DNA from: Phycisphaeraceae bacterium
GTDB lineage: Bacteria; Planctomycetota; Phycisphaerae; Phycisphaerales; Phycisphaeraceae
Direction: 5' to 3'
NCBI GenBank assembly: GCA_029260715.1
Contig: JAJDCS010000029.1
Location: forward strand, 1 to 64,000
Length of the DNA: 64,000 bases
In this document: piece by piece, positions 47,495 through 51,315 of the stretch
How the letters are laid out: each line of letters opens with the position of its first letter
How positions within the stretch are numbered: the stretch's first letter is position 1
The notes under the pieces: generated by a model
The model's input: only the letters and a program-made list of their open reading frames with translations
What the model was told of the DNA's origin: nothing
Database searches by the model: none
Made by a program: the position numbers and the translations under genes

Positions 47495-49294
47495 GTGTCG
47501 ATCGTGAAGGCTGTTAGTAACCGACGCTCAGTCCCGAATTTGCCCGCTAGCCGGCCACCCCGCCGGTGCTTGTGTGTCATACTGCTGCTGATCGGAGCGG
47601 CGCATGCGAGTCACAGCCCCACGCTAGCCGCCGCCACGCTGCCAGCCGCCGGCGACGACGATAACCTGTGGCTGCTGCGCCCCGACCCCCAGCGGCAAGG
47701 GTTTAAGGTTCTTCACCGCCGTACGCGCGACGACCTGCCCACGCTGCACCACCTGGCCTGGGTCCGGGGGCGTGTGGTGCCGGGCGGCATGGCCAGCGCC
47801 GATGACCGGCTTTGGCTGGTTTACGACGGCACAAAATCACAACCCAACATGGCGGTGCAATCGATCCGGGCCACCGGGTTCGCGCCGGACCTTATGACCG
47901 ATCAATGGCAAGACGAGCCGCTGCGATTTGAGCGGGCGCTGCCGCGCGGGGTGTTCCTCCGATCGTTCACCGCGAGCCGCTACGGCCCGTGGGCGCTGGT
48001 GCGCGTCGAAGACGCCGCCACCGTCCTGCAGATCGACGCGATCGCCCCGCCCCCAGCCGGTTCAGAATCGGGTGCGGGGGTTAAAGCAGACCCCGTGGCT
48101 CCTGGACCGGTGGCGGACGGTGTTGAAGCTCAAGGTGCATCGTCGCCCTCAGGCGCGTCGCCCCGCAGGCCCATCCGCGAGGACCGGCTGCTCCAACTCC
48201 AGGGCGATCAATGGGTGAAAATGGACCTGCCTGCGGACTGGCCTCAAGACACGCGGTGCTGGCTGATCGTGCGCCACCCGACCGATCGCTACCCCATGCT
48301 CGTCGCGCTAACCCCCGACCACAACAGTTGGGTCGTGTGGGTGTATGAATATAAGGACGACGGGTGGCAGCGTCAGCACTACAAGGCCCCGGCGGATCAG
48401 CTTGCGACACCTGTCGATCAAGCCCTTGCCGATACGAACCATCTCGATACACGCATGCCCGTTCTCCTGGTCGTGGACAATCAACTGGTGATGGGTCTCG
48501 CAAGCGGGCAAGCGAATCGGATCTCGGTGGATCTGTGGGTGTTTCGGCCGGGGGCCATCGCCCCGCTGGGCACGCTGGCCGTCGATGCCCCGCCCGCTAG
48601 GCCTTGGGCGCTGGTGCCCTATAGCCAAACCATCGCCTTGCTCGCGACAGACGCGCAGGACCGGCTGGTCTGGTCGCGCATGGACCTTCAAGCGAGGGTC
48701 ACACCCTCTAGCGTGCTGCCCGAATTTTCGCCTCGCTCGCTTACGCACGCAGCCGATTTCTTGATCTGGGTTGCCGGCGTCGTTGTCACGATGCTGGTGA
48801 TGTTCATCTTTTGGGTCCAGGAGCCTAGCCGCAACCAACTCAAGCTCCCACACGGCGTCGCGATCGCCGACTTGGGGTGGCGCGTGATTGCCTCGGTGAT
48901 AGACATGCTCCCGGCTGTGCTGGCGGCGGTGGTGATGTTCCGGATCGATCCCCGTGAGTTGTACAACGCCTGGCCGGGACGCAGCGGCGACTGGCACACG
49001 ATGCTCCCGAGCGTGACCGTGATTGGCGTGTTCGTGCTGCACACCACGCTCACCGAGCTTTTTACGGGCAAGACCATCGGCAAGGCCGTCACCGCCATGC
49101 GCGTGACCACGCTCGATGGCAAGCCGCCGCATATCTGGCAGGTGCTGGCCCGCAACTTCACCAAAGCGTTGGACCTGATCGTCTTGCTGACGCTGATCGT
49201 GCCGATGGTCACGCCCCACGGGCAGCGGCTAGGCGATCTGATGGCTAGGACGGTCGTGGTGACGGCCAAGAAGCAGAAAGCCGAGCCGACCTAG
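47495..49294 (+). CDS. RDD-domain membrane protein with large N-terminal extracytoplasmic region
   Basis: 599 residues, GTG start at 47495. A hydrophobic segment at about 27-40 looks like a signal sequence. Residues about 45-415 repeat DDNLWLLRPDP, DDRLWLVYDG and similar Trp/Asp strands, suggesting a beta-propeller-like fold. A membrane helix follows at about 425-445, then the RDD domain at about 455-590: IADLGWRVIASVIDMLPAVL (Arg and Asp), FTGKTIGKAVTAMRVTTLDG and QRLGDLMARTVVV (second Asp). RDD proteins are of mixed or unknown function, some in transport. Divergent from cdsA. Confidence 0.75.
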   Translation: MSIVKAVSNRRSVPNLPASRPPRRCLCVILLLIGAAHASHSPTLAAATLPAAGDDDNLWLLRPDPQRQGFKVLHRRTRDDLPTLHHLAWVRGRVVPGGMASADDRLWLVYDGTKSQPNMAVQSIRATGFAPDLMTDQWQDEPLRFERALPRGVFLRSFTASRYGPWALVRVEDAATVLQIDAIAPPPAGSESGAGVKADPVAPGPVADGVEAQGASSPSGASPRRPIREDRLLQLQGDQWVKMDLPADWPQDTRCWLIVRHPTDRYPMLVALTPDHNSWVVWVYEYKDDGWQRQHYKAPADQLATPVDQALADTNHLDTRMPVLLVVDNQLVMGLASGQANRISVDLWVFRPGAIAPLGTLAVDAPPARPWALVPYSQTIALLATDAQDRLVWSRMDLQARVTPSSVLPEFSPRSLTHAADFLIWVAGVVVTMLVMFIFWVQEPSRNQLKLPHGVAIADLGWRVIASVIDMLPAVLAAVVMFRIDPRELYNAWPGRSGDWHTMLPSVTVIGVFVLHTTLTELFTGKTIGKAVTAMRVTTLDGKPPHIWQVLARNFTKALDLIVLLTLIVPMVTPHGQRLGDLMARTVVVTAKKQKAEPT

Positions 49295-49337: not shown

Positions 49338-49366
49338 TTGATCACGAGCGAGGTGCCCGATATTAA
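49338..49366 (+). promoter_or_regulatory. Promoter of the wHTH-HATPase-STAS-like gene
   Basis: TTGATC at 49338-49343 and TATTAA at 49361-49366 with an ideal 17-base spacer, in an AT-rich stretch. The predicted start near 49373 lies just before the triple repeat. Confidence 0.55.
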
Positions 49367-49386
49367 CACTGGGGATCTAAAGTCAC

Positions 49387-49439
49387 CCTTTACAATATGC
49401 CGATCATCCTTTACAATAATGGCCTTCACCCTTTACAAT
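49387..49439 (+). repeat. Three direct repeats, likely operator array
   Basis: CCTTTACAAT occurs exactly three times: 49387-49396, 49408-49417 and 49430-49439, pitch 21 and 22 bases, with a shared TCAC/TCAT left flank. A partial inverted match, ATTGTAAACA, lies at 49504-49513 inside the gene. The array ends 22 bases before the start codon, after the predicted transcription start. Confidence 0.85.
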
Positions 49440-49461
49440 GTGGTGGGCAAGGGGTTTCGTT

Positions 49462-50487
49462 ATGACGACTGTCCGAGAGCGTGGCGAGCGGATCCGTAAA
49501 TTTATTGTAAACAACGTCGGGGTTCATCCAGATGACATCGCAAAGGTTGCCGCCAAGAAATTCGGCGTTACCAGGCAGGCCATCCATAACCATCTGTCGC
49601 GGTTGGTAGACGAAAAAGTTTTACAAAGTCATGGAAATACTCGGAATCGCAGCTACTCGCTGTGCCCGTTGATGACTTGGCAGACCAGGTTCGCTGTTGA
49701 GAAAAATCTCGAAGAAGACGTCGTTTGGAATCGAAAAATTCTTTCTCGCTTAGAAAACTTGCCAGATAACGCACTGAATATTTGGCGACACGCATTTACC
49801 GAAATGTATAACAACGTAGTCGATCATTCGCAGGCAAAGCTAGCGAAGATCGAACTCACCAGAACCGCCACAACGACAGAACTGATACTCCGGGACAACG
49901 GCGTAGGCATCTTTAAGAAAATCCAAAATGCGTTGGGTCTGATCGATGAGAGACACGCCGTGCTTGAGCTTGCAAAAGGAAAGCTAACCACCGATCCAAA
50001 GCGTCACACCGGCGATGGGATCTTTTTTTCGTCGCGGATGTTTGATGAATTCGCGATTCTCTCCGGCAACACATTCTTCTCCCACGATTTTCACGAGGAC
50101 GATGACTGGATACTACAATCTCAAGGCAACACGGATGGGACAACCGTGGTAATGAAATTAGACAACCACACGGCCCGGACAACCAAGAAAGTATTTGATA
50201 GGTTCAGTGCCGGCGATGATTTTGTTTTTAACCGCACGGTTGTCCCTGTGCGCATGGCACAGTACGGCGACGACAAATTGATCTCTAGATCACAAGCAAA
50301 AAGAATGCTCACAAGAGTTGATCGGTTTAGCGTTGTCTTGTTTGACTTCCGAGGGGTTGAGGAAATCGGGCAGGCTTTTGCCGATGAAATATTCCGTGTT
50401 TTTGCCCATGAGCACCCTGAAATGCAACTGGAATATGTTCACGCTAACTCCGCAATTAAACGGATGATTGGCCGCGTGAAGCAATAG
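49462..50487 (+). CDS. Winged-helix / HATPase / DUF4325 STAS-like regulator
   Basis: 341 residues from the ATG at 49462 (AAGGGG 7 bases upstream); an earlier ATG overlaps the third repeat. Residues about 10-65 are a winged helix (DDIAKVAAKKFGVTRQAIHNHLSRLV). Residues about 105-235 are a GHKL ATP-binding fold: N box FTEMYNNVVDHS (Glu114, Asn118), G1 box RDNGVG (145-149), G2 box TGDGIFFSSR. Residues about 255-335 fit the DUF4325 STAS-like domain (VVLFDFRGVEEIGQAFADEIFR). No receiver, His-phosphorylation site or membrane helix. This puts DNA binding, an anti-sigma-kinase-like ATPase and an anti-anti-sigma-like fold in one chain. Codon use is AT-richer than in neighbours, hence probably acquired. 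Confidence 0.8.
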   Translation: MTTVRERGERIRKFIVNNVGVHPDDIAKVAAKKFGVTRQAIHNHLSRLVDEKVLQSHGNTRNRSYSLCPLMTWQTRFAVEKNLEEDVVWNRKILSRLENLPDNALNIWRHAFTEMYNNVVDHSQAKLAKIELTRTATTTELILRDNGVGIFKKIQNALGLIDERHAVLELAKGKLTTDPKRHTGDGIFFSSRMFDEFAILSGNTFFSHDFHEDDDWILQSQGNTDGTTVVMKLDNHTARTTKKVFDRFSAGDDFVFNRTVVPVRMAQYGDDKLISRSQAKRMLTRVDRFSVVLFDFRGVEEIGQAFADEIFRVFAHEHPEMQLEYVHANSAIKRMIGRVKQ

Positions 50488-50562: not shown

Positions 50563-51315
50563 ATGGACCCTCAACGCAAAACCCTAGGCCCCGCGGTGGC
50601 GCTGCTCTCTGGCGGGCTCGACAGCGCCACCACCGTGGCCGCGGCCCGCGAGCGAGGCTACGCCATCCACGCCGTCACTTTTGATTACGGCCAGCGCCAC
50701 CGTGTCGAACTCCAAGCCGCCCAACGCATTGCCGAGTGTCTCGGTGTCGCCTCACACCGCTGTGTGAAGATCGACCTGCGGTCGATCGGCGGGTCGGCGC
50801 TCACAAGCGACATCGAAGTGCCCAAGGACCGCCAAGACCTCACCCAACCCAGCGAAGCACACGAGCACAACAAGCACATCCCCGTCACGTATGTGCCCGC
50901 CCGGAACACCATTTTTTTGTCCTACGCTTTAGCCATCGCCGAGGCCGTGGGCGCCGGGGATATTTTCATCGGCGCCAACGCGGTGGATTACTCGGGGTAC
51001 CCCGACTGCCGCCCTGATTACCTCCAAGCGTTTGAAGTCATGGCCAATCTGGCCACCAAGGCAGCCGTGCAGGGCAGGCAGATTAAAATCCACGCCCCGC
51101 TGATCGACCTGACCAAGACCCAGATTATCCAGGAAGCGCTGCGGTTGGGAGTGGACATCGCGGCGACGCATAGCTGCTACGACCCCGATGCGCAGGACCT
51201 GGCGTGTGGCCGGTGCGACGCGTGCGCGCTTCGCCGTGATGCGTTTGAGCAATTGGGCATGGCCGACCCGGCGCTGGAGCACCTCAAACCCGCGGCCAAG
51301 GCGGACCCCCTCTAG
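50563..51315 (+). CDS. queC: 7-cyano-7-deazaguanine synthase
   Basis: 250 residues. ATP-dependent synthesis of preQ0 from carboxydeazaguanine, for queuosine in t[23 protein letters not shown] is the PP-loop, [26 protein letters not shown] and [14 protein letters not shown] are QueC blocks, and [20 protein letters not shown] gives the four-Cys zinc site. Its stop codon overlaps that of the convergent cheB by 3 bases. tRNA-Asp (GTC) in this window is one of the queuosine target tRNAs. queD/queE are not adjacent. Confidence 0.96.

Follow-up and report, generated by a model that had tools for sequence, protein, structure and literature searches.

The 64-kb stretch of DNA analysed here (the window) carries a gene for a 341-amino acid protein in which a winged helix-turn-helix (wHTH) domain is followed by a GHKL ATPase domain and a DUF4325 STAS-like domain, and which is preceded by three exact copies of the repeat CCTTTACAAT. 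On balance, we regard this as a stand-alone, horizontally mobile and self-repressing gene, with the GHKL-STAS core of its product serving as both sensor and output. The array of repeats is almost certainly a genuine operator and promoter. Coordinates are collected in Table 1.

Table 1. Features of the gene, its upstream region and its neighbours in the window.
Feature	Position	Strand	Basis and remarks
Left neighbour, 599-aa gene	47495..49294	+	Adjoins queC in relatives; bounds the empty site on the left
Promoter proposed in the earlier note, TTGATC-N17-TATTAA	49338..49366	+	Sequence present; weaker score; unconserved
Operator copy 1, CCTTTACAAT	49387..49396	+	Exact repeat; kept in homologues; probably supplies -35 TTTACA (49389-49394)
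Operator copy 2, CCTTTACAAT	49408..49417	+	Exact repeat; probably supplies -10 TACAAT (49412-49417); terminal T most conserved here
Operator copy 3, CCTTTACAAT	49430..49439	+	Exact repeat; third copy kept in homologues; just 3' of the inferred transcription start
Shine-Dalgarno-like AAGGGG	49449..49454	+	Sequence; 7 nt 5' of ATG 49462
Whole gene, wHTH-GHKL-DUF4325, 341 aa	49462..50487	+	Domains; start common to homologues; AlphaFold2 model
Winged-helix domain, approximately residues 1-78, recognition helix TRQAIHNHLSRLV	49462..49695	+	Weak MarR_2 match; fold
GHKL ATPase/kinase domain, approximately residues 85-238, SpoIIAB-like	49714..50175	+	HATPase_c_2; 1til; invariant residues
DUF4325 STAS-like domain, residues 278-341, Q304 near the phospho-serine position	50293..50484	+	PF14213; conservation of G303/Q304/A305
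Right neighbour, presumably QueC-like	50563..51315	+	Right edge of the empty site

The three repeats are spaced 21 and then 22 bp apart, exactly as an earlier note on this DNA had described, and these are the only sites at which CCTTTACAAT is found across the whole 64-kb window. When the 163-bp intergenic region was shuffled with dinucleotide composition preserved, an exact 10-mer was present three or more times in 7 of 5000 shuffles. The pattern TTTACAAT-N11..16-TTTACAAT has two matches in the entire 3.3-Mb genome, both at the array. An inverted TTTACAAT at approximately 49504-49511, within the gene, is out of register with the array and was rejected as a coding coincidence.

The earlier note assigned the promoter to TTGATC-N17-TATTAA and placed the repeats between the transcription start and the ATG. 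The first of these sequences does exist, but both its role as the promoter and the resulting placement of the repeats are probably wrong, because copies 1 and 2 themselves make a higher-scoring site and because conservation (42 aligned arrays of 21/22 geometry) is confined to the three repeats, with none upstream of copy 1. Using a sigma70 matrix built from general consensus frequencies, TTTACA-N17-TACAAT (copies 1 and 2) scores 12.05 versus 6.82 for TTGATC/TATTAA and is the best sigma70 site of this region in the window. Across the family, the copy 1/copy 2 site ranks first among several hundred sigma70 candidates in 45 of 68 arrays and is one of the best three in 63 of 68; for canonical arrays, this test is partly circular, because a TTGACA-like motif had been used to choose them. 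At some loci with diverged motifs, a separate promoter is embedded in the array (for example, TTGATA-N16-TATAAT). The geometry is asymmetric: the first gap measures 21 bp in 48/68 arrays, the second measures 22 bp in 59/68, and use of the 21-bp spacing differs between the two gaps (Fisher p 2e-12). The final T of the repeat is retained in 60/68 arrays at copy 2, compared to 47/68 at copy 1 (p 0.011) and 34/68 at copy 3 (p 2e-6; both p values versus copy 2). These gap sizes and the terminal T of copy 2 fit an arrangement in which copy 1 is the -35 element and copy 2 the -10 element with a 17-bp spacer. Copies 1 and 2 probably form the promoter, in which case a bound protein would block RNA polymerase.

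The array is a recurrent trait of the family, as found in the search of other genomes that the earlier note had proposed. With no motif assumed, 10-bp words recur at a spacing of 21 in 66 and at a spacing of 22 in 82 of 110 regions upstream of homologues; the expectation from shuffling at these two spacings is 3.8-4.8 loci, and other spacings from 12 to 39 give 2-13 loci. In most homologues inspected, the repeats lie immediately 5' of the start. Homologues without upstream repeats, which the earlier note would have counted against its reading, are a minority: when triple repeats were tested locus by locus in a set chosen with less selection, 11 of the 18 testable loci were significant (p<=0.05) and the other seven were not, and one more locus (L004) has a clear 21-bp pair. 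By these counts, the array is common in the family, not universal. In seven arrays, some copies read TTGTCAA and not TTGACAA, so the unit repeated may be TTGWCAA, which is nearly palindromic and readable in either direction.

The letters of the operator vary with the recognition helix of the wHTH (examples include TTTAAGAAA, CTGTCTAT and TTGTCGA); the spacing stays at approximately 21-22 bp. Distance between motifs correlates with distance between wHTH domains beyond that of the core (partial Mantel r=0.24, p=0.0005), with R38, F34 and N43 as the wHTH positions most strongly correlated with the motif. The converse partial correlation, of motif with core, is nearly equal (r 0.22, p 0.002), so the motif-wHTH correlation partly reflects shared descent and is modest evidence by itself; the partial Mantel test fails to separate wHTH and core cleanly. 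Natural variants of the protein bear on the same question. One homologue (L005:1468-2319) has no wHTH; it follows purH immediately, and the array is missing. Two others carry a different DNA-binding domain on the same GHKL-DUF4325 core, XRE-like in L113:3297-4400 and MerR-like in L179 (reverse strand), and neither has such an array upstream as judged by eye, showing what appears to be modular swapping of this domain. A relative is also found behind purH and is frameshifted. Four family members on viral contigs have a different recognition helix; upstream of two of these, a TTTACA-N17-TATAGT promoter lies near inverted TTAAC-type repeats and the 21/22 array is absent.

The array is conserved at the promoter of the gene itself and is missing where the wHTH has been lost or replaced, which favours the earlier note's reading of the protein as an autorepressor. 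From these comparisons, we consider it very likely that the array is bound by the protein's own wHTH, and only slightly less so that the protein represses through it; autorepression is well supported at the level of sequence. An alternative is that the repeats are an element of a host promoter, or arose by chance tandem duplication, and are read by a regulator of the host in place of this protein. Their sigma70-like appearance (TTGACA/TACAAT) would fit this alternative, and recognition by a host factor is conceivable in principle. That the same array accompanies the gene in many phyla, that its motif changes with the wHTH at constant spacing, and that it is lost along with the wHTH make this explanation very improbable. 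Because the core is kept where the wHTH has been lost or exchanged, it presumably has a role beyond feedback at its own promoter.

Across 33 genomes, the array was not found convincingly at any other gene. Of 110 canonical array pairs in the flanking sequences retrieved, 105 precede the gene's own start; among the remaining five, three come from these same regions read on the opposite strand. In these genomes, searched for paired and triplet sites, strong triplets (read by eye) occur essentially at the gene alone, and relaxed-pattern pairs elsewhere are few, near control counts. The relaxed pattern proved too noisy to define a regulon genome-wide, and many low-complexity TTTACGATT-type matches in two genomes were set aside. 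One genome (G323) has identical arrays on contigs C201 and C297, which suggests that the contig is duplicated or that the gene is present twice. Ordinary regulators typically combine a wHTH with autoregulation, and this counts in favour of a transcription factor for distant genes whose array is merely an autoregulatory site. We judge such a regulator unlikely, given that the strict array pattern is unique in its own genome, that the 33 genomes show the distribution described above, and that a version of the protein persists with no wHTH (L005). A conserved partner is likewise not apparent: no partner family was found among 548 neighbouring open reading frames (ORFs), the largest group being integrase-like (6 loci). 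Immediate neighbours of homologues are mostly unrelated metabolic genes with a few that are defence-like, and PADLOC analysis of neighbours identified a few defence families with one match each, for which we claim no enrichment.

The domain architecture that the earlier note had recognized, a winged helix joined to a GHKL ATPase with intact N/G1/G2 boxes and to DUF4325, is borne out by domain matches and residues. The listed ORF begins at ATG 49438; as homologue alignments begin at ATG 49462, the latter is the best start. DUF4325 (PF14213) is matched with E=2.9e-12 (46.5 bits versus a Pfam cut-off of 23) and HATPase_c_2 with E=3.2e-6. The wHTH has a weak MarR-type match and matches MarR/ArsR-family PDB chains at weak E-values; in the AlphaFold2 model, it folds as helix-helix-helix-wing. 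This model, a check that the earlier note had suggested, was built with 60 homologues and has a mean pLDDT of 91.7 and a pTM of 0.86. Its ATPase domain aligns with SpoIIAB (1til) over 133 residues (Z 15.3, rmsd 2.2), and both the fold and the catalytic Glu...Asn, DxGxG and GxG motifs are those of a SpoIIAB-type GHKL protein. When PADLOC was run on the protein itself, only weak, sub-threshold matches were returned.

Ten residues of the GHKL core (E114, N118, H122, D145, G147, G149, G173, T176, G184 and G186) are invariant in 125/125 homologues, suggesting that ATP binding is kept and that catalysis is probably kept. The STAS position corresponding to the SpoIIAA phospho-serine, matched by motif position, is G303-Q304-A305, with Q in 118/125 homologues and A or G at 305 in 121/125. 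With G-Q-A/G at this position, classical STAS phosphorylation in cis is unlikely: judged by these residues, the STAS domain of the fusion is no classical phospho-acceptor, and a kinase and antagonist acting as a simple switch within one chain are improbable.

The family is widespread and sparse. An alignment-based search identified homologues in at least 475 GTDB species representatives from many phyla; a query of genome contigs with the single protein gave no match, and the alignment query succeeded. Homologues are present in 12 of 294 genomes of the window organism's phylum, and in 7/398, 3/292 and 4/301 genomes of the phyla of a Paraburkholderia, a Synechococcus and an Anaerolineae carrier, respectively, so that carriers make up approximately 1-4% of the genomes sampled per phylum. 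No homologue was matched in plasmid and phage collections at E 1e-5. The atypical base composition reported in the earlier note is evident (gene 47.8% GC, window 60.7%), and third-position GC is 0.54 in the gene versus 0.79 in the next gene. In a tree of 79 proteins, phyla are mixed, with 27 label changes versus a minimum of 13. In eight relatives, the gene is missing from this site and its left neighbour lies next to the QueC-like gene; one of these empty-site genomes has its own homologue on a different contig. The empty site, composition and tree together support the horizontal transfer that the earlier note had proposed, and gene and array most likely came in together, as a single unit of approximately 1.2 kb.

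The mechanism that we favour is as follows. The wHTH would bind the three TT[G/T]ACAA(T) copies, which double as the -35, -10 and start regions, and would exclude RNA polymerase such that the level of the protein stays low. Sensor and output alike would be the GHKL-STAS core, whose residues are those of an ATP-binding, kinase-competent protein: a stress ligand would alter its nucleotide state or oligomeric form, the array would be released, and a burst of core would follow that could then act on a host or phage target. We give an even chance to control of operator release by the ATP/STAS state. Single-stranded DNA (ssDNA), by analogy with CapK (below), is the leading guess for the ligand, and a doubtful one. 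A tentative extension, which we hold slightly more readily than the ssDNA signal, is that the gene may be a one-gene stress or immune device whose regulon is itself and whose effector is its own GHKL-STAS core, and not a downstream operon. A kinase-repressor switch seems to be compressed into one gene in which promoter and operator are the same element. Should the core prove to be the effector, this would point to a widespread class of single-gene response. Because the operator is evident from sequence, binding, de-repression and signal are testable together in a laboratory strain.

Open literature on DUF4325 is almost nil, and literature searches on the operator sequence or the architecture brought up a single relevant study (PMC13373217, EMBO J 2026). 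Several known systems share parts of this design. SpoIIAB-SpoIIAA and RsbW-RsbV have the GHKL fold, the conserved Glu/Asn catalytic pair and a STAS-type domain; in contrast, the window protein is fused with a wHTH, its STAS serine is replaced, and no sigma factor partner is seen. CapW/BrxR and CapH+CapP are, as cited in PMC13373217, DNA-binding repressors that answer DNA damage and control adjacent immune operons; the likeness is in being DNA-binding repressors, and their domains (WYL, peptidase) are unrelated. VapKSC, a three-gene toxin-antitoxin operon with predicted ssDNA sensing (PMC13373217), also has a GHKL kinase with a STAS domain, but no toxin or VapS-like gene is conserved beside the window family.

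The closest known system is CapK/CapS. CapK is an ssDNA-activated kinase with the domain order HTH-STAS-GHKL, and CapS is an autoregulated STAS-wHTH repressor with a MarR-like wHTH, a conserved phospho-Ser54 and palindromic TTAA operators; capS directly follows the CapK gene in 443/443 cases, and an immune operon then follows in 348/443 (PMC13373217). The earlier note's statement that HATPase kinases and STAS proteins act as separate partners is fair as a generality, but the two are combined in CapK (PMC13373217). HTH, STAS and SpoIIAB-like GHKL domains are common to both systems, as is autoregulated repression at a promoter, which in the window family is predicted. It is conceivable, if rather unlikely, that the window gene is a one-chain version of this DNA-damage switch, in which the ssDNA-activated GHKL domain would phosphorylate its own chain or a neighbouring protomer and DNA would be released. 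The three shared domain types, the ssDNA activation of CapK and the autoregulation of CapS (PMC13373217) speak for such a switch, as does W89, near-invariant (114/125) at the start of the GHKL region and not equated here with CapK W68. It is opposed by the G-Q-A/G in nearly all homologues at the position where CapS has its phospho-serine, by the different domain order (wHTH-GHKL-DUF4325 in one chain, versus two proteins), and by the lack of a linked CapS or immune operon: the window gene is followed by the QueC-like gene, and the family has no conserved partner. The operators also differ, palindromic TTAA in CapS versus three TT[GT]ACAA(T) copies at 21/22 bp in the window. We find no support for counting the window family as CapK or CapS, with CapK compared by its published description; in outline, the family may nonetheless work like a CapK/CapS-type switch. 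As read from sequence, it is a stand-alone, one-chain variant whose sole visible target is itself.
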